This document shows, piece by piece, positions 17,724 through 27,124 of a stretch of 44,289 nucleotides of DNA (positions are counted from its first letter, which is position 1; the number at the start of each line of letters is the position of its first letter). The notes under the pieces were generated by a model. It was not told where the DNA came from. It worked only from the letters and a program-made list of their open reading frames with translations, and ran no database searches. The position numbers and the translations under genes were made by a program. Source of the DNA: a virus. The stretch covers positions 1 to 44,289 of IMG/VR virus record IMGVR_UViG_3300032282_002962. The stretch is one strand, 5' to 3'.

Positions 17724-17750
17724 ATCGCCCTTCGGGGCGATTCTAGTTTT
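17724..17750 (+). terminator. Intrinsic terminator closing the modification operon
   Basis: ATCGCCC (17724-17730), TTCG loop, GGGCGAT (17735-17741): 7 bp with a stable tetraloop, then TCTAGTTTT. Two bases after the stop of the methyltransferase gene. Confidence 0.75.
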
Positions 17751-17757
17751 ATAAATA
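17750..17757 (+). promoter_or_regulatory. T4-type late promoter for the head-protein region
   Basis: Exact TATAAATA overlapping the end of the terminator, 28 bases before the next ATG. It marks the switch from the early/middle modification operon to the late structural block running to about 27 kb. Confidence 0.82.
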
Positions 17758-17784: not shown

Positions 17785-18930
17785 ATGGCCACAATCACGT
17801 TAGCTAAGAAACAACTTACGCCCAATCAATTTGGACTTGGTATGTCGCCCGAAGATTCTGCTTCCCTTTTTAGAAAAGTTACAGCAGGTTTAAAGTCTAT
17901 GCATACCTCTAAGAAGCTTTCTACAGGTGTATTTAATATATGTACAGAGATCTTAGCACATTCTCAAAAAGGTAAGAAGACTTTTGATGTAGACTTCTCG
18001 TCTTGGGTTACTCCACAGGAAGTAGGTATTATTGTATCAGACTTTGGTGAAGTTACAGGTGCTCTGTATATGCTTAAACATTCGGGCACAAAGTTTGTTA
18101 AGGTTAAATTCCCAACACTAGCAAATGAAAAGCTTGTGGATTATTATCTTATAGATGGAGAGGGTATTGAATATCCATTCTCTGCTAAAGCGGGTGCTGG
18201 AGGTAAACCATCTATCACTGCTGTTACTCCTATCATCACGAAGATGAAAGGTCTTAAAGGTAAGACTAAATTAGCAGCAGAAGTTATATTGGCTATTGGT
18301 ATTGAAGAAAAGACTGCAACAGGTAAGAGTACCGGTACAGACTTGTTTAAAGGTCCATTGCTTGCAGCAGAGATTTTAAGTAAGGATATTCCTGCTTATC
18401 CAGCTTTAATTAAAGTTCTTCAAGATAAGAAGTTGAAGACTGGATATACAGGTGGAACTCCTACATCGGAGCATCTTGATAACGCTATGGCAAATGCAGG
18501 AATGTATCCAGCTTGTGTTGAAACATTCTTTAAACCATTTATGGATGCAGCAAAGTCTAAGGGCTTTGAACTTAAAGATGAAACATCTGTGAAGAGAGCA
18601 GTTAATCTTTCGCCTTATGGACTACCTGGAGGTAAACCACACCGCGATAAGAGATGGGGATTATTACATTATCCTCTTACAGCTAATCTTATAAGTTGGC
18701 TAAATAATCCAGACAATGGCGCAACAGACTTGTTATCGAAGGCTGCAAAGACTCTTACAGTAACACAGATTTACTTAGATGTTTCACCAGCAAAAAATCC
18801 AAAGACATGTGTGTATACGTTTAAAGAATTCTCGGATGCTCAATTCCAATTTGGATCTCCATCGAGTACACCTAATCCAATTGGAAATAGAATTGGTTTG
18901 ACAATGATAAAGACGCCTAAGAAAAAATAA
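17785..18930 (+). CDS. Late protein of unknown function
   Basis: 381 aa, first gene after a late promoter. Begins MATITLAKKQLTPNQFGL. No transmembrane segment or signal. The segment YYLIDGEGIEYPFSAKAGAG has a D...E...S-x-K arrangement that faintly recalls a nuclease core, not enough for a call. The product is likely made late and might be virion-associated by position. There is no obvious ribosome site in the short A/T-rich leader. Confidence 0.75.
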   Translation: MATITLAKKQLTPNQFGLGMSPEDSASLFRKVTAGLKSMHTSKKLSTGVFNICTEILAHSQKGKKTFDVDFSSWVTPQEVGIIVSDFGEVTGALYMLKHSGTKFVKVKFPTLANEKLVDYYLIDGEGIEYPFSAKAGAGGKPSITAVTPIITKMKGLKGKTKLAAEVILAIGIEEKTATGKSTGTDLFKGPLLAAEILSKDIPAYPALIKVLQDKKLKTGYTGGTPTSEHLDNAMANAGMYPACVETFFKPFMDAAKSKGFELKDETSVKRAVNLSPYGLPGGKPHRDKRWGLLHYPLTANLISWLNNPDNGATDLLSKAAKTLTVTQIYLDVSPAKNPKTCVYTFKEFSDAQFQFGSPSSTPNPIGNRIGLTMIKTPKKK

Positions 18931-18938
18931 GGATAGTT

Positions 18939-20165
18939 ATGTTACAGTTTAAAAGTTTCCTAAAAGAGGAAGAAGATCCACAACAGTTAAAGCATATTCA
19001 TCATGCTGAAGACCGTCCTTTGATGCACGGTCATGAAGGTTTTGAACATGCGCATGGAGCTTTAACGCAAGCTCATGAACACATGAAAGCTGGTAAACAT
19101 AATACCAATCTTACTATGAAGTATGATGGTTCTCCTTCAGTAGTGTTTGGTCATCATCCAAAGACCGGAAAATTCTTTGTAGCCTCTAAGTCTGCATTCA
19201 ATAAGAATCCAAAGATTAATCATACAGAAGCAGACATTGACAAGAATCATGGACACGCTCCAGGTCTTGCAGATAAATTAAAAGCAGCACTTCATCACCT
19301 ACCAAAGGTTACCCCAAAGCATGGAGTATATCAAGGTGACTTAATGCATTCTGGTGGATCTAAAGGTGATGTACATCACGATCCAAAAACTGGAACTGCA
19401 AAGTTTACACCTAACACAATCACTTATACTGCTCACGGCGATGAAGCTAAGAAAGCAGCTCAATCAAAAGTAGGTGTAGTTGTTCATCAGAAGTATGAAC
19501 ACACCGGTGCTAGTAAAGAGCTACACCATATGAGTGCAACACCACATCCAGACACGCATAACTTTAAGCAACATAAAGATGTACATTTGAAGTCTGCAGA
19601 GCACGATACAAGTAAGATTAATTACTCACATCAATCACAAGAACAATTCCATAAGCATATGAATGCAGCTAAAGACATTCATGATACACATGGATCTAAG
19701 ATGTATAAAGCTATTCATCCACAGCACAGCGGTGAAGGTGGACATATGGCTACGTATATTAACTCAACTGTACGTACAGATAGTGTACCAACTGCTAAAG
19801 GATTCCAAGCTCATATGAAATCGCACTTTGATAAAGCTGCGAGTAAACTTAAGTCTGAAACAGGTCAGGCTAAGAAGCATGCCGAAGGTGCATCCCATAT
19901 TCAACATATTGAACAGAATAAGTCTCACTATGATCACTTATTTACAATGCATCAACACTTACAAAAAGCTAAGGATACTTTAGTTCATAATCTAAATCAA
20001 CATACTGGTGGATTAGAACATCACATTGATCATGCTAAAACAGATCCAGAAGGATTTGTTGTTAACCATACACATAATGGAAGAACAGAACCTACTAAAC
20101 TAGTTAATAGAGCTGAGTTTAGTAAAGCCAATCTTTTAAAGATTAAGAAATGGAAACAAGAATGA
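18939..20165 (+). CDS. Ligase-like nucleotidyltransferase (DUF6267-like) with capsid-targeting peptide
   Basis: 408 aa, very His-rich. Residues 1-10, MLQFKSFLKE, resemble the T4 capsid targeting sequence and end in LxE, the prohead protease consensus. The body shows K61 in MKYDGSPS (the KxDG nucleotidyl-lysine motif of ATP-dependent ligases), YQGDLM (about 131-136), and GVVVHQKY (179-186), in ligase order. The region ASKSAFNKNPKI is typical of a family known from T4-like phages (DUF6267). An adenylating or ligase-type enzyme packed in the head is inferred, not shown. Confidence 0.8.
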   Translation: MLQFKSFLKEEEDPQQLKHIHHAEDRPLMHGHEGFEHAHGALTQAHEHMKAGKHNTNLTMKYDGSPSVVFGHHPKTGKFFVASKSAFNKNPKINHTEADIDKNHGHAPGLADKLKAALHHLPKVTPKHGVYQGDLMHSGGSKGDVHHDPKTGTAKFTPNTITYTAHGDEAKKAAQSKVGVVVHQKYEHTGASKELHHMSATPHPDTHNFKQHKDVHLKSAEHDTSKINYSHQSQEQFHKHMNAAKDIHDTHGSKMYKAIHPQHSGEGGHMATYINSTVRTDSVPTAKGFQAHMKSHFDKAASKLKSETGQAKKHAEGASHIQHIEQNKSHYDHLFTMHQHLQKAKDTLVHNLNQHTGGLEHHIDHAKTDPEGFVVNHTHNGRTEPTKLVNRAEFSKANLLKIKKWKQE

Positions 20166-20770
20166 TATCGTTTACCGAATACCTAGAAGAAGGTGCTGGT
20201 GATAAGCATGGAGTTATTGCAGTTGGACGTATGAATCCTCCAACTACAGGACATATGCAAGTCATTAATAAAGTGCATACACTCGCTCAAAAGCATAATG
20301 CAGAACACAAAGTAGTTGTTACTCATAGCCAAGATGCTAAGAAGAATCCTTTAAGTGCAGCTCAAAAGATTAAGCACTTAAAGCGTTATAGTAAAGAGAC
20401 TAATGTAGTTGCAGGTTCTAAAGAGAAGCCAAACGTATTAGCTCATGCTTCTGATATGCATAAGTCTGGAGTTACTCACCTTCATGTAGTAGCAGGTTCA
20501 GATAGAGTTGAAGCAACTAAGAAATTACTACACGATTATAACGGTAAGGAAGCTGCTCACGGTCACTATAACTTTAAGAAGATTACTGTACATTCTTCTG
20601 GTAAAAGAGATGCTGACTCTGAAGGTACATCTGGTATGTCAGGCACTAAGATGAGAGAGCATGCTAAGAATAATAACTTTAAGGAATTCCGTAAAGGAGT
20701 TCCATCACATGTATCAGATGCTCATGCGCATGAGTTAATGCACGACGTACAGCAAGGACAACTAAAATGA
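20162..20770 (+). CDS. HIGH-superfamily nucleotidyltransferase with capsid-targeting peptide
   Basis: 202 aa. Starts MISFTEYLEE, again a targeting-like peptide ending in LxE. Then the nucleotidyltransferase fold: GRMNPPTTGH (22-31, the HxGH motif with Thr for the first His, common in phage forms) and SGMSGTKMRE near residue 162-171 (the SSTxxR counterpart). Such enzymes transfer NMP groups, as in NAD or CTP-choline synthesis. ATG at 20162 overlaps the previous stop. May be injected to act on host NAD or another cofactor; inference. Confidence 0.85.
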   Translation: MISFTEYLEEGAGDKHGVIAVGRMNPPTTGHMQVINKVHTLAQKHNAEHKVVVTHSQDAKKNPLSAAQKIKHLKRYSKETNVVAGSKEKPNVLAHASDMHKSGVTHLHVVAGSDRVEATKKLLHDYNGKEAAHGHYNFKKITVHSSGKRDADSEGTSGMSGTKMREHAKNNNFKEFRKGVPSHVSDAHAHELMHDVQQGQLK

Positions 20771-21315
20771 TATCATTTAAAGAGTACTTAGAAGAGAAGC
20801 GTGGATTGTGGGATAACATTCATGCTAAGCGTAAACGCATTAAAGCTGGTTCTGGCGAACATATGCGTAAGCCTGGAGAAAAAGGTCGACCAACTGCATC
20901 CGACTTTAAAGCTGCGGCTGAATCAGTTGAGTTAACTGCTGATGAGCAATTTGATATTATTGAAGAAGTAGTAATTGAATTAGCTCAGCAACATAATTTA
21001 GATCCAGAAATTGTATGGGAAAAGTTTGAAGATATTGAAGATGACAAACTGTTTGAATATGCTATTGATGCTAAAGGATATAAGTCTTCAACTGGAGGTC
21101 TAACCCAAAAAGGTGTTGACGCTTACAACCGTAAGACCGGCGGTCACTTACAAACTGCAGTAACTACTAAACCTTCAAAGCTAAAGCCTGGAAGTAAAGC
21201 TGCTAATCGTCGTAAGTCATTCTGTGCTCGTATGGGTGGAGTTAAAGGTCCTATGAAAGACGAAAAGGGTCGTCCAACTCGTAAGGCATTAGCACTAAGA
21301 AAGTGGAATTGCTAA
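20767..21315 (+). CDS. Basic late protein with capsid-targeting peptide (DUF6321-like)
   Basis: 182 aa. Starts MISFKEYLEEKRG with LxE at the targeting boundary. Then LWDNIHAKRKRIKAGSGE, a motif frequent in phage and giant-virus proteins, an acidic helical part, and a basic C-terminal domain GYKSSTGGLTQKGVDAYN to SFCARMGGVKGP, of the DUF6321 type. The basic tail suggests nucleic-acid contact inside the head. ATGA overlap with the gene before. Confidence 0.8.
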   Translation: MISFKEYLEEKRGLWDNIHAKRKRIKAGSGEHMRKPGEKGRPTASDFKAAAESVELTADEQFDIIEEVVIELAQQHNLDPEIVWEKFEDIEDDKLFEYAIDAKGYKSSTGGLTQKGVDAYNRKTGGHLQTAVTTKPSKLKPGSKAANRRKSFCARMGGVKGPMKDEKGRPTRKALALRKWNC

Positions 21316-21479
21316 TGCTAAAGTTTAAAGATTTTATCCAAGAAGAGAATACCCAAGGCGATATTGGAACGGATAAACTTACCAAGCATCGTAAGAAATT
21401 AACACCTGGAGAAAAGCCAGAAACTCCAGATATGTTACCAGATTATTGCGAATGTGAAAATATACAAAAGAATAAATAA
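21315..21479 (+). CDS. Short protein with capsid-targeting peptide (54 aa)
   Basis: ATG at 21315 overlaps the previous stop by one base (TAATG) and the frame closes at 21477-21479. It encodes 54 residues starting MLKFKDFIQEENTQGD, with IxE at the same place as its neighbours' LxE sites. After cleavage only about 44 residues remain, rich in Lys and Pro. In T4 such small cleaved internal peptides and proteins fill the mature head. Easily missed by size cut-offs. Confidence 0.75.
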   Translation: MLKFKDFIQEENTQGDIGTDKLTKHRKKLTPGEKPETPDMLPDYCECENIQKNK

Positions 21480-21509
21480 GATATAACGTTTACTTATCGA
21501 TGGAATTAC

Positions 21510-22835
21510 ATGAAAAAATACAGACAGTTAGTTACTCAACTGCCATCTAAAAAAGTTGTCTTAGGATTTAATGAGTTTCAGTCACCTTCGGCTGTTCATG
21601 AAGTCTATATCAACTCTATCAAAAAGTTAGCTTCTTCTCAGAAAGCTGATCATGTCATTTTTGCTTCTTGCACAGAAGACAAAAAGATTCCACTTCCAGT
21701 AGATCGTAAAGTATATTTTTTGGAAAGAATGTTTCCAAAGACGAACTTTCTTGCGTGTAATGAAGTTGTAAATGATATAACAACTATCACCAAAGTTCTT
21801 TTTGAAAAATATAAGCATGTTACAATCGTAACTTCTCAAAGCCAAGTTGCTTCATACGAAAAGTTACTCGAGAATTTTAATGTACAGATTATTGGAGTAC
21901 AGGATTTTACTCCAAATGCTAAGATTGTTGAGAGTCTTAAAAAGGGAGATTTTGGTTCCTTTAAGAAGTCTCTTCCATTTACTATAACTGAACTTGATAG
22001 CAAGCGTCTTATGAATGAGATGCGTTTAGCTATGGGTCTTAAAGTTCTTAAAGAACAAGTTAAGTTTGAAACCAACGAATTAAGAGAAAAGTATTTCGCT
22101 GGAGAAATATTTAATGTTGGTGAGATAGTAGAGTCGGATGATACTGTATATGAAATCATTAAGCGTGGTTCAAATCACCTATTACTTCAAGATGAAAAGG
22201 GAAACCGTATAAGCAAGTTTCCTCAAGAGCTACAGTTATCTAATAAAGAATTCGTTTTAGAGGAATCTAATATGCCAACACCTCAACTAGAAGTTGAAAA
22301 AGTCAATGAAGCACAGGGTTTAGAAGGTGCAATGGACGGAGCGCAAGATACTTTAGAATCAGATCTAAATGATAAACAAATTGATGATATGGTTGGTGGA
22401 GTAACCGATGATCATATCATTAATCATTGTTACGATGATCACGAATTATGTATTATTGATGATGAAACCGGTGAGCATCTTCATGATTTACATGAAGAAG
22501 TGATTATGGAAGTTCTATCACGTATGGAACGTATCAAAGCAAAAATAAGATTTGCAAGATCAGAAACTAAGCGTGAAAGAAAAACACGTGTTGCTCTTAA
22601 GACACATTCCAATGTAAAGACTATTAATAATAGAGCACGTCGTTTAGCAATTCAAATGATGAAAGAAAGAATTGCAAAGCGTCCTCTTGATAAACTATCT
22701 GTATCGGATAAAGAAAGAATTGAAAGAATGATGGCAAAACGTAAAGTTGTTATCAATCGTCTTGCTATGAAACTCGTACCAAAGGTTAGAAAAATTGAAT
22801 CAGATCGCCTTTCGCATAAAAATTATACTAAATGA
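21510..22835 (+). CDS. Late protein: nucleotidyltransferase-like domain plus basic tail
   Basis: 441 aa with three parts. Residues 1-190 resemble a nucleotidyltransferase (VVLGFNEFQSPSAVHEVYIN, where the HxGH motif is degenerate). Residues about 205-250 form a small beta domain (FNVGEIVESDDTVYEI). The last 110 residues are highly basic and helical (SETKRERKTRVALK to MAKRKVVINRLAMK), a tail shared by head-associated proteins of T4-like phages. An acidic linker lies between. Probably structural, with a dead enzyme fold; this is inference. Confidence 0.72.
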   Translation: MKKYRQLVTQLPSKKVVLGFNEFQSPSAVHEVYINSIKKLASSQKADHVIFASCTEDKKIPLPVDRKVYFLERMFPKTNFLACNEVVNDITTITKVLFEKYKHVTIVTSQSQVASYEKLLENFNVQIIGVQDFTPNAKIVESLKKGDFGSFKKSLPFTITELDSKRLMNEMRLAMGLKVLKEQVKFETNELREKYFAGEIFNVGEIVESDDTVYEIIKRGSNHLLLQDEKGNRISKFPQELQLSNKEFVLEESNMPTPQLEVEKVNEAQGLEGAMDGAQDTLESDLNDKQIDDMVGGVTDDHIINHCYDDHELCIIDDETGEHLHDLHEEVIMEVLSRMERIKAKIRFARSETKRERKTRVALKTHSNVKTINNRARRLAIQMMKERIAKRPLDKLSVSDKERIERMMAKRKVVINRLAMKLVPKVRKIESDRLSHKNYTK

Positions 22836-22847
22836 AAGAGATAATAT

Positions 22848-23294
22848 ATGGATGAATTACAAGCATCACTGAAGGTATCATTGGCAAATACATTTGTCAT
22901 GTACTTCAAAACACACGGATATCACTGGAATGTTGAAGGAATTCACTTCAGCCAGTACCACGAATTCTTTGGAGATCTATATGAAGACCTATATGGCGCT
23001 GTAGATCCTCTTGCAGAAAACTTGAGAAAACTCGGTGTTTATGCACCAAAGAGTTTAACTGAACTATTTGATGCAACTACTATTAGAGAAAATCAATCTA
23101 TAGTAGGAGATAATCTAAAAGATATGCTAAATAGTTTAGAAGCTGATAATAAGGAAGTTATTAATTCTTTGAACAAGACATTTGTACTAGCAACAAAAGC
23201 TAATAAACAAGGTCTTGCAGATTACATCGCTGGAAGGATTGATACTCATGAAAAACACGCGTGGATGTTAACAGCATCTCTTAAAGGAGCATAA
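22848..23294 (+). CDS. dps: Dps/ferritin-like DNA-protection protein
   Basis: 148 aa, Dps family: dodecamers that oxidise and store iron and may coat DNA. The ferroxidase ligands H26 (YHWN), H38 (YHEFF), D53 and E57 (VDPLAE) keep exactly the spacing of E. coli Dps H51, H63, D78, E82. The C-terminal helix ends HEKHAWMLTASLKG. It sits inside the late cassette of head proteins, though it lacks the targeting peptide. Likely shields DNA from oxidative damage. Confidence 0.92.
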   Translation: MDELQASLKVSLANTFVMYFKTHGYHWNVEGIHFSQYHEFFGDLYEDLYGAVDPLAENLRKLGVYAPKSLTELFDATTIRENQSIVGDNLKDMLNSLEADNKEVINSLNKTFVLATKANKQGLADYIAGRIDTHEKHAWMLTASLKGA

Positions 23295-24566
23295 ATGAGA
23301 GTTATAGACAAGATTCTTGAAGCTAGAAAAGAACTTTCCGATAAACAGAAGAAGCTTGACAAGAATGATAATGGTAAAATCGATTCAGAAGATCTGAAGA
23401 TTGTTCGTACTAAAAGAGATGATGTGTATACATCTGACTATAAGTTAGATAAAAAAGGTCATAAAACTAAAGCTCATAAGATTAGTTTTAAAGCTGGAGA
23501 AGAAGAAGTTAAGGAAGAACATATGTCACCTGAACAGATGAAAAAGAAAGAAGATATCGTTAAAGGTATGAAGAAGTCCTATAAAGGATTCGTTCAGCGT
23601 TACGGTAAAGATCGTGCAAAGTCTGTGATGTATGCTACTGCAACTAAAAATGCTATGAAAGAAGAATCTGAAATGAATGAAGCATTACATCCAGAAGCGG
23701 ATAAGGTTCTAAAACATATTAAGCCTGAGCATCATGCTAAATATAAACCAGACCTAGCAAAGGGTGTTTATAAAGGTGATTTCGCAGATAGAACAGCAGT
23801 ATTGAAAGCAGCAAAAGCAGCTGGTCACTTAAATGAAGACGCTGTTGACGAATCTACTGTACCTGAGCATATGAAAGGTAAGCAAAAACCATACGTATCT
23901 TCTGATGGCAAAGGCAATCATGAAGTATTAGGTAATACTGGCCAAGTTAAAGCAACCTTCACGCAAAAAGAACATGGCAAAGATGCTAAAGCTAATGCAA
24001 TTGCTCATCTTAAGAAAAACTATGATGCTTATATGAAAGAAGAAATTGACGAATCTTTATGGCCAGGGACACCAGAATATAAAAAGAAATTTGATACTGA
24101 TCGTGTAACTGGTGCTGGTGCTCGTCATGATATCAAGAAAACTGCAACAGGCGTAATTGCAACACGCAGATTTGCAGATAACGATACAGCTGAAAAGCCA
24201 AAGGATGCACCAAAGCGCGGCAGAGGACGTCCAAAGAAAGATAAATTCGCAGAAGCTGTTGAGTTCTTAATTGGATTAGACGAAGAAACATTTGATTCTC
24301 TAATGGAAGAAGGTTTTGATTCTTTCATGGAACAATACGAGCAATTAGATGAGATAAGCAAATCTACTCTAGGATCTTACGTTAAAAAAGCTAGCAGAGA
24401 TGCAGTTGTTACACGTAAAATAGGAGCAGATTTTGAAAATATGGCTGATAAATCAAGAAAGCCTTCTTCGAAAGCTGCAGCAACTGAACTTGCAGATAAA
24501 TGGAAGGCAAAATCTTGGAAACGTTCAAATAACATCGAAAAAGCGGTAGACCGCTTAACAAAGTAA
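23295..24566 (+). CDS. Internal/head polyprotein-like protein with AT-hook
   Basis: 423 aa, strongly Lys/Glu-rich, low complexity, no membrane segment. It opens MRVIDKILEARKE with ILE near residue 9, a possible prohead-protease site. Recurrent phage modules are visible: YKGFVQRYGKDRAKSVMYAT (about 95-115), GRGRPKKD AT-hook (about 308-317), and DEISKSTLGSYVKKASRDA (about 357-375). Several further LxE or IxE sites occur. Suggests a DNA-binding internal protein or prohead core component that is cut during maturation. Confidence 0.7.
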   Translation: MRVIDKILEARKELSDKQKKLDKNDNGKIDSEDLKIVRTKRDDVYTSDYKLDKKGHKTKAHKISFKAGEEEVKEEHMSPEQMKKKEDIVKGMKKSYKGFVQRYGKDRAKSVMYATATKNAMKEESEMNEALHPEADKVLKHIKPEHHAKYKPDLAKGVYKGDFADRTAVLKAAKAAGHLNEDAVDESTVPEHMKGKQKPYVSSDGKGNHEVLGNTGQVKATFTQKEHGKDAKANAIAHLKKNYDAYMKEEIDESLWPGTPEYKKKFDTDRVTGAGARHDIKKTATGVIATRRFADNDTAEKPKDAPKRGRGRPKKDKFAEAVEFLIGLDEETFDSLMEEGFDSFMEQYEQLDEISKSTLGSYVKKASRDAVVTRKIGADFENMADKSRKPSSKAAATELADKWKAKSWKRSNNIEKAVDRLTK

Positions 24567-24582
24567 TTTTAAGGAGAAAACC

Positions 24583-25143
24583 ATGCCACTATGGGGAAAC
24601 ACAGACGCAACAGGTAGCAAACCAAAATACCTATCTACTGCGCAAAAAGCAAAAACATATTTCGTATCTAGAGAAGAAGCTCTTCTTGCTACAAACAAAG
24701 CTAAGGGTATTACCGGCGCTGGTTGGTGGTTAATTGACGAATATAAAGATTCAGGCGGACAATCACGTTATAAGGCTGAATGCCTTGTAGCTATGTCAGT
24801 TGCTAACGCAACATCTGGTGACGCAGCTGATGATGCTGTAGTTGCAGACGTTAACGTTACAATTACTATCTCTGGTCAACCAGCTAATCAGAACACTCTT
24901 TCTGGTGGAGCAACATTCGGTGTAACCGCAACTGCTTCTTCTGGTGCAGTAACATATCAATGGCAGAAAGCTCCATCAGGTTCTACACGCTTTGCTAACG
25001 TATCAGGTTCAACCAATGCTACTATCGTATTGACCGGTCAACTTGCTGCTAATACTGGCGACAAATATCGTTGCGTTATCAGCTCTTCATCTGGTGCAGT
25101 TAAGGTCAACTCTGACTCAGCTACACTAACATTTGTTAGTTAA
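24583..25143 (+). CDS. Virion protein with Ig-like domain, Hoc-type candidate
   Basis: 186 aa. N-terminal part starts MPLWGNTDATGSKPKYL, a form seen in virion proteins of T4-like phages. Residues about 95-186 are an Ig-like domain: ITISGQPANQ, VTYQWQKAPSGS, YRCVISSSSG, with the Trp and Cys of the Ig core. Ig domains often decorate heads and bind cell or mucus surfaces. Strong ribosome site AAGGAG. Ends at a perfect hairpin, so it closes a transcription unit. Confidence 0.8.
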   Translation: MPLWGNTDATGSKPKYLSTAQKAKTYFVSREEALLATNKAKGITGAGWWLIDEYKDSGGQSRYKAECLVAMSVANATSGDAADDAVVADVNVTITISGQPANQNTLSGGATFGVTATASSGAVTYQWQKAPSGSTRFANVSGSTNATIVLTGQLAANTGDKYRCVISSSSGAVKVNSDSATLTFVS

Positions 25144-25146
25144 TTA

Positions 25147-25164
25147 TAGGGACTTCGGTCCCTA
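25147..25164 (+). terminator. Hairpin with UUCG loop after Ig-domain gene
   Basis: TAGGGAC (25147-25153), TTCG, GTCCCTA (25158-25164): 7 bp perfect. No long T run follows, so it may be a weak terminator or an mRNA 3'-end stabiliser. Confidence 0.6.
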
Positions 25165-25170
25165 CTCGTT

Positions 25171-25542
25171 ATGATCTTGAATGATGATAATTTTCTTCTC
25201 TATGCTATGAATCACTATGATAATCCGCAGTGTCATAGTATAGATGAATTTGAAGACGATCTTAAAAGATTTTTATATATTAAGAAATTATTTTCTCGTT
25301 ATAAGAATAATGATGAACTTCGAGAGAGGTTAATCCTTAATCATATTATAGTCTTATATAACGTGTTTGGTGATGCAGTTACTAACATGTTATTTTTTAA
25401 GATTGAAAAAGAAGATTGGCCCCTATTAACTACATTCTTGGTTTACGTAAATCGTATGCCAGATATAATTGAACAATATGGAATTAAAACATCTGATATA
25501 ACTCTTGATCAAAAGGTTGTATCGGCTTTAAGGAAGATTTGA
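25171..25542 (+). CDS. Conserved late protein of T4-like phages
   Basis: 123 aa, mostly helical, beginning MILNDDNFLLYAMNHYDNPQC. The pattern of NHYDNPQC, DDLKRFLYIKKLF and ERLILNHIIVLYNVFGD is familiar from aquatic T4-like phages, function unknown. The start has little upstream ribosome site (CTCGTT only). It overlaps the next gene by one base. Confidence 0.75.
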   Translation: MILNDDNFLLYAMNHYDNPQCHSIDEFEDDLKRFLYIKKLFSRYKNNDELRERLILNHIIVLYNVFGDAVTNMLFFKIEKEDWPLLTTFLVYVNRMPDIIEQYGIKTSDITLDQKVVSALRKI

Positions 25543-26072
25543 TGTCTAGAACTATCGACAATGTAATAGCATTTAAAATTTTATATATGCTCGTTACACC
25601 GTTTGACGCAACAGATGCGTATAGACTTGGTATTATAGATGCCAATGGCACTGCTTTAAAGAAAATACGAAATCTAACTACGACTGAAGAAAAAGATGCT
25701 TATACATCTCTTCATCGTTTAGTGTTTTCTCTTAAGAGATTAATTCAAAAAATTCCAGGCGGTAAGAGTAAACTAGCTAGTTTAGTTGCTGCTTATTGGT
25801 TAGTTAAGGAATCTTATACTAATGGTACTAAGATAACCGAGAGTATGCTTATGCAATCAATTGATTTGATTGAAAGCAAGAAAATTACTTTAGTTGAAGA
25901 ACAATTAGTAATTGAAAAATTTATTAAATTAGTTGAAGATGGAGCAATTGCTAATACTGCAGGTGCTGCAACTGCAACTGATCAAGCTGCTATCAAAAAG
26001 AATAAAGACGGTATACTAGGTGCTCCTAAGTATATGTTTAAACGCAATAAGAAAAATGTGGAGATGGGTTGA
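25542..26072 (+). CDS. Conserved late protein of T4-like phages
   Basis: 176 aa. ATG 25542 overlaps the previous stop (GATG). Hallmark blocks: ILYMLVTPFDATDAYRLGI, DAYTSLHRLVFSLKRLIQKI and PGGKSKLASLVAA. The tail is Ala/Thr-rich and then basic. Widely present near head genes of T4-like phages, function unknown to me. Overlaps the next gene by one base. Confidence 0.75.
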   Translation: MSRTIDNVIAFKILYMLVTPFDATDAYRLGIIDANGTALKKIRNLTTTEEKDAYTSLHRLVFSLKRLIQKIPGGKSKLASLVAAYWLVKESYTNGTKITESMLMQSIDLIESKKITLVEEQLVIEKFIKLVEDGAIANTAGAATATDQAAIKKNKDGILGAPKYMFKRNKKNVEMG

Positions 26073-27124
26073 TGAAAACGTTTAAAGAAGCATATGGTCG
26101 TCGTCATGACGCTTACACCCGTGATTACCATAACTCCATAGCTGGAATGGGTAAACACCAATCAGCTGCTTATCATGCCGATGGAGGTGCTAATGATGAA
26201 GGCTGGGATCGTGAACCTCATCACAAACCTGCTGATCATCCACACTCTGTACACATTAATGGTAAGAAATGGAAAACGTTTGGATCTCAATCACATGCTT
26301 CTAACGTAGCTAAAAAGATTAAAGGTGCCACAGTTCATAAAGAAGAAGTTCAAATTGACGAAGCAGGTACGTCAGCAGCAATAAGAATGCAGAAAGCTTT
26401 AGAAAAAATTAAAGCTGATCGTGAGCGTAAAGAACGTTTAGCTGCGCCTTATGTTCCAGTTAAATCTGTGTTCAAACAAGAAAAGTCTATAAAAGAAAGC
26501 AATGAGCACTACGAAGAAGCTGAAGAGCATCTATCAAAGGCAAACGATGCTGAAGCTAAAGGTGATATGAAATCATTCCATGCTCATATGGCTGATCATC
26601 ATGATGCTATGTCAGAATGGCATGATTCAAAGGGGCGTTCTGCTTCGGCTGATAAGCATGCTGATAAAGCTGAATATCATCACGATAAATCTTTAACTGT
26701 TAAAGAATCTTTTAGACCTATGGATGAACCAAAATACGATCAATCTATTCAAGCTCGTCAAAAGAAAGCTGATGATGCTAAAAAGAAAGAAAAAAAGAAA
26801 GCTGTAGCAGAAGCCAAAGATCCTGGTGAATACGACCAAGAAGGTGATATGACTATGACTCAGTTGCGTAGTATCATTTATCACGCACAAGAATTACATG
26901 ATCAATTAGATAAGAATGACAATCTTCCTGAGTGGGTACAATCTAAGATTACTCTAGCACAAGATTATGTGCAAACTGCATGTGATTATATGTACTCACA
27001 AAAAGAAGTTAAAGAAGAATTAAGCGATCCTACTCGCAATGCAAAGCAAGAGAAAGATATTGCTACTGGTAAGAAGCCAATGCCAAAGCGTAAGTTATTA
27101 GGATTTAAACAACAGAGTTGTTAA
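26072..27124 (+). CDS. Late Lys/His/Glu-rich protein, possible internal head protein
   Basis: 350 aa. Starts MKTFKEAYGRRHDA; its first five residues nearly match T4 internal proteins (MKTYQEF), but no LxE or IxE site follows at once, so the targeting call is weak. Then a His-rich low-complexity section, LSKANDAEAKGDMKSFHAHM helices, a Lys-rich stretch and, near residue 285-315, LPEWVQSKITLAQDYVQTAC, a module common in such phage proteins. Probably structural or internal. Confidence 0.65.
   Translation: MKTFKEAYGRRHDAYTRDYHNSIAGMGKHQSAAYHADGGANDEGWDREPHHKPADHPHSVHINGKKWKTFGSQSHASNVAKKIKGATVHKEEVQIDEAGTSAAIRMQKALEKIKADRERKERLAAPYVPVKSVFKQEKSIKESNEHYEEAEEHLSKANDAEAKGDMKSFHAHMADHHDAMSEWHDSKGRSASADKHADKAEYHHDKSLTVKESFRPMDEPKYDQSIQARQKKADDAKKKEKKKAVAEAKDPGEYDQEGDMTMTQLRSIIYHAQELHDQLDKNDNLPEWVQSKITLAQDYVQTACDYMYSQKEVKEELSDPTRNAKQEKDIATGKKPMPKRKLLGFKQQSC

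Follow-up and report, generated by a model that had tools for sequence, protein, structure and literature searches.

A probable T4-type capsid-targeting leader on predicted enzymes of aquatic T4-like phages

The viral record IMGVR_UViG_3300032282_002962 (positions 1 to 44,289, in the following referred to as the window) is a fragment, 44.3 kb in length, from a T4-like phage, whose open reading frames (ORFs) include replication genes of the gp45, gp44, gp43, UvsX and gp41 type. In a block of genes located between its helicase region and the ribonucleotide reductase genes, unrelated proteins starting at positions 18939, 20162, 20767 and 21315 begin with a common peptide of the form M-x-x-F-x-x-[F/Y]-[L/I]-x-E. 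We consider it highly probable that this peptide is a capsid-targeting leader of the T4 type, which would be cut by the prohead protease gp21 and would serve to package enzymes for injection in T4-like phages of aquatic environments. The principle is known from T4, and a tag that enables the packaging of varied proteins has already been described for T4-like phages (PMC9026906). Its spread and its enzymatic cargo appear undescribed in the literature searched, which yielded no account of the tag for cyanophages or further T4-like phages from aquatic habitats, although papers beyond that search could contain one.

Results

A shared N-terminal leader on unrelated proteins

An earlier note on this DNA, made from the sequence, had pointed to near-identical N-terminal peptides in the four proteins. 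These are all present, as MLQFKSFLKE (18939..18968), MISFTEYLEE (20162..20191), MISFKEYLEE (20767..20796) and MLKFKDFIQE (21315..21344), each on the + strand, and for these four genes the shared peptide is genuine. A strict regular expression turned out to be too narrow to describe the leader and was replaced by position matrices. One of them (the DUF6267 matrix) was compiled from 35 distinct leaders of DUF6267 proteins, the family of the protein at 18939, from other contigs with the window excluded, whereas a broader matrix was trained on environmental leaders with both the window and T4 left out. With the DUF6267 matrix, scores of at least 8 are found among 510 candidate starts of the window only at 18939, 20162 and 20767, and the start at 21315 scores 7.35 (16.9 with the broader matrix). 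When the same matrix is applied to the window and six related contigs, 15 of 10,099 candidate starts reach this score, and these comprise six DUF6267 genes, seven genes adjoining a DUF6267 gene and two strays. Across 81 loci, a score of at least 12 is attained by 140 of 8567 ATG candidates on the sense strand, a count that includes the DUF6267 genes, compared to 0 of 2451 on the antisense strand. At a score of at least 5, matches correspond to DUF6267 itself in 78 cases and to other genes in 122, of which 120 are located on the sense strand.

Two proteins that had been listed as weaker members, 23295..24566 (+, MRVIDKILE) and 26072..27124 (+, MKTFKEAYG), were rejected. Their scores with the broader matrix are –18.8 and –1.6, respectively, the latter lacks the conserved positions 7, 8 and 10, and the motif is not found in the homologues of either. 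Overlooked in turn was the protein starting at 21510 (MKKYRQLVTQ), which we regard as carrying a degenerate leader because its relatives start with MKDYKQFLKE, MKNYRELIKE and similar peptides.

The conservation resides in the peptide and not in the underlying nucleotides. Codons vary at fixed residues of the leader, with TTT and TTC used for Phe 4, six leucine codons for Leu 8 and GAA and GAG for Glu 10, and we thus conclude that selection acts on the peptide. In structure models, the leader is predicted to form a loose helix that precedes the folded domain.

The leader matches the capsid-targeting sequence of T4

The proposed relationship to the capsid-targeting sequence of T4 is borne out by the broader matrix, which is blind to T4. 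Among 1429 ATG candidates of the T4 genome, the five best-scoring starts are, in this order, those of gene 61.1, ipIII, ipII, an ORF at 137955 and ipI, and the probability of finding the genes of all three named internal proteins in the top five by chance is about 2e-8. In DUF6267 leaders, most information is carried by positions 4, 7, 8 and 10, and in all other leaders positions 4, 10 and 7 are most informative, with position 8 next and position 2 close to it. Genetic mapping in IPIII of T4 showed that targeting depends above all on residues 4 and 7, and processing by gp21 on residues 8 and 10 (PMC9026906). The consensus in aquatic phages reads M[K/L]SFxx[F/Y]LKE.

The best leader of the T4 genome belongs to gene 61.1 (L200, NC_000866 18966-19130), which is located beside 61.2, encodes a hypothetical protein of 54 residues and starts with MKTFKEFIKEDM (MKTFKEFIKE). 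Its product may be an unrecognized internal protein.

The leader is distributed over different protein families

In relatives, the leader is attached to unrelated domains, as the earlier note had anticipated. It is found on over ten protein clusters, including nucleotidyltransferases on their own or as part of longer proteins, DUF6321 proteins and several unknown families. A cultured relative, phage C48C1, also bears the leader on its DUF6267 protein. Among the tagged proteins are a phosphatase-like protein (L022:6839), which matches a polynucleotide kinase PHROG (5e-10), and an ADP-ribosyltransferase (L036:2819-3523, PF03496, 4e-12). On one contig (L016), the linker behind the leader is identical in 25 of 27 nucleotides between the DUF6267 and the nucleotidyltransferase gene, suggesting that the tag region was copied between genes.

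The tagged ADP-ribosyltransferase may correspond to T4 Alt. Further proteins of the block, in HTVC008M (gp132, L139:14209), Melnitz (L143:5218) and S-SCSM1 (S-SCSM1_89, L140:36358), have another N-terminal pattern in common, with EAYxxV or EALxEV around residue 10-16, and since S-SCSM1_89 is a virion protein, a second class of leaders may exist.

Leader-bearing proteins are detected in virions of related cyanophages

According to published virion proteomes, orthologues of the protein at 20162 were detected in virions of the cyanophages S-SCSM1, S-CREM2 and S-SZBM1 (PMC10665884, PMC9602691, PMC9146016), and all three carry the leader, with S-SCSM1_91 starting with MKSFLQFLKE, S-CREM2 gp154 with MKNFSSFLTE and S-SZBM1_140 with the one residue shorter MRFRQFIIE. 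Among 4303 ATG, GTG and TTG candidates of S-CREM2, five annotated starts score at least 3. These are the starts of gp154, which is the nucleotidyltransferase, gp6, an S-adenosylmethionine (SAM) hydrolase, gp14, a kinase with a GTG start, gp136 and gp13. All five proteins appear in the published virion list, a concordance with a chance probability of 7.5e-4, or of 7.5e-5 if non-structural genes alone are considered, at a score limit that was picked after the list had been seen. If the undetected leader proteins of S-SZBM1 (two) and S-SCSM1 (one) are counted and the GTG-started gp14 is excluded, the pooled chance amounts to between 0.002 and 0.008.

The Cas9-like gp12 of S-CREM2 (L202:4705-7314), which was equally detected in virions, contains the motif at about residue 18-26, and this internal copy is kept in the matching gene starts of S-N03, S-H34, S-B68 and MA10 (L207-L210). 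In S-CRM01, a kinase reported in virions (PMC10665884) starts with MISFDQFLSE. An internal control is provided by the DUF6267 relatives of S-SCSM1, S-CREM2 and S-SZBM1, which do not carry the leader. These are absent from the virion lists of S-SZBM1 and S-CREM2 and have no virion-protein note in S-SCSM1. None of the passages covered from the three proteome papers names a targeting signal.

In the Cas9-like proteins, the motif is located behind a conserved start of the MSxSRWSRW type.

Predicted properties of the cargo proteins

The proteins at 18939 and 20162 had been described as a KxDG ligase-like enzyme and a nucleotidyltransferase, and both identities are upheld. The former (18939..20165, +) is a member of DUF6267 (PF19782, 1.6e-97). 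In an alignment with 29 homologues, K61-Y-D-G64 and E371-G are invariant, as are Phe 4 and Glu 10 of the leader, and the linker behind the leader varies in length. Its structure was predicted with fair confidence (predicted local distance difference test (pLDDT) 85). The nearest folds identified with VIA-align are RNA ligases with Z-scores of 8.5-10.4, including those from Naegleria (10.4), T4 RNA ligase 2 (9.3) and T4 RNA ligase 1 (8.6), and all 50 among the matches listed are nucleic-acid ligases. Foldseek alone found nothing at E ≤ 0.001, and the ligase fold was assigned because of the second aligner and the motifs. By motif and fold, the protein is placed in the covalent nucleotidyltransferase superfamily of RNA and DNA ligases, with a predicted corresponding activity.

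The protein at 20162 (20162..20770, +; PF01467, phrog_3041) is cytidylyltransferase-like. In its 18 homologues, Phe 4 of the leader is invariant and Glu 10 nearly so, and the PPTxGH motif, of the HxGH type, and the region around SGTKxR, corresponding to S/G-T-x-x-R, are conserved. Its top fold matches are a mixture of NadD, NMNAT and flavin adenine dinucleotide (FAD) synthetase, with template modelling (TM) scores of about 0.5. The protein thus resembles adenylyltransferases acting on nicotinamide or nicotinate mononucleotide with a Rossmann nucleotidyltransferase fold, where the substrate is a prediction. Sequence searches against solved structures gave no match for the DUF6267 protein and chance matches only (E about 0.5) for the nucleotidyltransferase. 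As the catalytic motifs are conserved, enzymes are to be expected instead of filler.

The leader at 20767 precedes a protein with a C-terminal DUF6321 domain (20767..21315, +; PF19846, 6.3e-24). One relative (G009, L114:10104-10556) encodes, between portal and gp21, a fusion of DUF6321 (1e-25) with a prohead-core-like protein that weakly matches a prohead PHROG (phrog_1064, 2.3e-5). This arrangement would fit a role inside the head. The fourth leader is carried by a small separate ORF of 54 residues without known domain (21315..21479, +).

The probable cleavage motif is retained in gp23 of relatives

In T4, comparison of the precursor with the mature chain places the cut in gp23 at GSFLTE|A. 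The maturation region of gp23 keeps the L/I-x-E motif in relatives, with GSFLAE|A in S-SCSM1, GLLTE|A in S-CREM2, ILTE|A in S-SZBM1 and FLTE|T in C48C1, and it reads ALFE|A or ALFE|G in three related contigs (G001, G002 and G004). In G001, the leader of the nucleotidyltransferase ends with KELFE|A and thus resembles gp23 of the same contig. From these sequences, we infer that the leader would be cut by gp21 after L/I-x-E.

Organization of the gene block

The block starts with a gene without leader (17785..18930, +), which encodes a protein of 381 residues with no assigned function and a weak match to S-SZBM1_142. The start sites of the four leader-bearing genes are well defined. From 20162 on, each start overlaps with the stop codon of the preceding gene, in ATGA at 20162 and 20767 and in TAATG at 21315, and an in-frame ATG at 20150 offers a weaker start than the one at 20162. 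They are followed by the gene of a second cytidylyltransferase-like protein, which carries the degenerate leader (21510..22835, +). A Dps/ferritin-like protein without leader (PF00210, 22848-23294) is located within the block and kept in relatives. Further downstream, a protein without leader (24583..25143, +) is the orthologue of S-SZBM1_136 (36.6% identity over 202 columns, 7e-29), which was detected in S-SZBM1 virions. Its start, MPLWGNTDA, is similar to that of HTVC008M gp135 (MGLWGATDA).

At the head of the block, the octamer TATAAATA (17750..17757, +), about 27 nucleotides 5' of the ATG at 17785, resembles a T4 late promoter, an assignment made post hoc. There are only four copies on the + strand of the window, with a total number of matches that is not above chance. 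In the relative G001, an equal octamer precedes a leader-bearing gene of the block. Together with AATAAATA (ATAAATA) at 21472, the octamer lies shortly 5' of 17785 and 21510, the genes with which the two parts of the block begin, in the manner of T4 late promoters.

Discussion

What has been observed directly is the motif itself, on proteins of unrelated families, together with its identification with the T4 tag by a matrix blind to T4 and a connection to the published virion proteomes of relatives. The interpretation put forward in the earlier note, by which such proteins would be loaded into the head and delivered to the host, is largely right. Several points weigh against it. The gene for gp21 was not found in the 44-kb fragment; it is present in seven of ten related contigs and in eight of eight isolates searched. 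The small leader-bearing proteins S-SZBM1_191 and S-SZBM1_192 are not in the published list and S-SCSM1_30 is without virion note, so that the tag is no guarantee of detection. Conversely, S-SZBM1_139 and S-SCSM1_90 are virion proteins encoded in the same block but do not carry the leader. A clear leader is missing on one or both enzymes in HTVC008M, P-HM2 and other cyanophages, being absent from the P-HM2 nucleotidyltransferase and from DUF6267 of the marine cyanophages examined. Finally, contamination is considered possible by those who published the proteomes.

Concerning other explanations, the leader might load proteins whose role is confined to the head, in DNA condensation, packaging or as scaffold, instead of effectors to be delivered. 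The basic C-termini of DUF6321 proteins and the fusion of this module to a prohead-core-like protein in G009 would be in line with such a role. We regard it as unlikely because catalytic motifs are invariant in the ligase-fold proteins as well as in the nucleotidyltransferases, which suits enzymes better than packing material, and since Alt and the internal proteins of T4 are ejected (PMC9026906).

The loose helix predicted ahead of the folded domains could alternatively be amphipathic and dock to a partner or to the membrane in the infected cell, without relation to the head. That the T4 internal proteins top a blind scan and that leader genes are enriched in virion proteomes makes this very improbable. 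We have equally little confidence in an accidental link between leader and virion, where detection would reflect the carry-over of abundant proteins from the lysate, a concern raised by the authors of both cyanophage papers and nourished by the coverage of S-CREM2 gp154, which amounts to only three peptides. Carry-over would not explain why all five leader proteins of S-CREM2 are found among the minority of non-structural proteins detected while leaderless DUF6267 relatives are unreported in the same proteomes, and if the link were accidental, one would not expect the motif to retrieve the T4 internal proteins as well. An effect at the nucleotide level, on translation initiation or as downstream box, has hardly anything to commend it beyond the many A/T-rich early codons and the translational coupling of the genes, since invariant residues (Phe 4, Leu 8 and Glu 10) use varied codons, conservation peaks at residues 4, 7, 8 and 10 instead of the first codons, and the peptide is kept in the GTG-started kinase of S-CREM2 and as internal copy in Cas9-like proteins.

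We thus favour a capsid-targeting leader of the T4 type. In this mechanism, the aromatic residues 4 and 7 would attach the newly synthesized protein to the scaffold core of the prohead. Upon closure of the shell, cleavage by gp21 after [L/I]-x-E (residues 8-10) would release the enzyme within the head, which would then be filled with DNA around the enzyme. Upon infection, the cargo would exit together with the DNA and act immediately in the host, where injection is proposed by analogy to T4. In the phage of the window, the predicted cargo would consist of the DUF6267 ligase-fold enzyme, whose packaging is predicted from its leader, the NMNAT-fold nucleotidyltransferase, the DUF6321 protein and the 54-residue peptide, with the second nucleotidyltransferase at 21510 probably carrying a decayed tag. 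The job of these enzymes would likely be end-healing, sealing and the repair of nucleotide cofactors against host defence. Such cargo would be suited to sealing broken RNA or DNA and to restoring nucleotide cofactors immediately upon entry, and with the leader-tagged phosphatase-like protein of a relative, the set for end-healing would be complete.

The presence of enzymes in virions of cyanophages has been reported as a puzzle or as a possible contamination, and a ten-residue tag offers a reason for it. The tag indicates which proteins should be contained in the head, so that injected proteins can be predicted from a genome sequence and tested, and it extends the principle of the T4 internal proteins from small proteins of coliphages to enzymes of phages that are abundant in the sea and in fresh water. 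Whether the leader is a portable address label, which across aquatic T4-like phages loads and injects a varying assortment of enzymes (ligase, phosphatase, nucleotidyltransferase, ADP-ribosyltransferase, SAM hydrolase, kinase and Cas9-like nuclease), mainly as pre-made counter-defence and repair, appears to us evenly balanced. If so, scanning thousands of phage genomes for the leader would point to their injected effectors.

Among known systems, giant phages related to phiKZ also cut head proteins after a short motif ending with Glu (PMC9026906), although with other propeptides, a distinction made without sequence comparison. The cyanophages S-CREM2, S-SCSM1 and S-SZBM1 share with the window a leader-bearing nucleotidyltransferase, whose orthologues were detected by mass spectrometry, whereas their DUF6267 proteins are leaderless and the one described here bears the leader. 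T4 Alt is an ADP-ribosyltransferase packaged into the head, similar to the leader-tagged ADP-ribosyltransferase of the relative L036, which was likened to Alt by domain and not by sequence; Alt is without homologue in the window. The closest resemblance is found in IPI, IPII and IPIII of T4 (MKTYQEFIAE), where a ten-residue N-terminal peptide with aromatic residues at positions 4 and 7, Leu or Ile at position 8 and Glu at position 10 precedes unrelated mature proteins, and which are retrieved by the same matrix as the aquatic leaders. While the cargo of T4 is small and basic, the proteins described here are mainly enzymes of about 200-900 residues from phages of aquatic bacteria.

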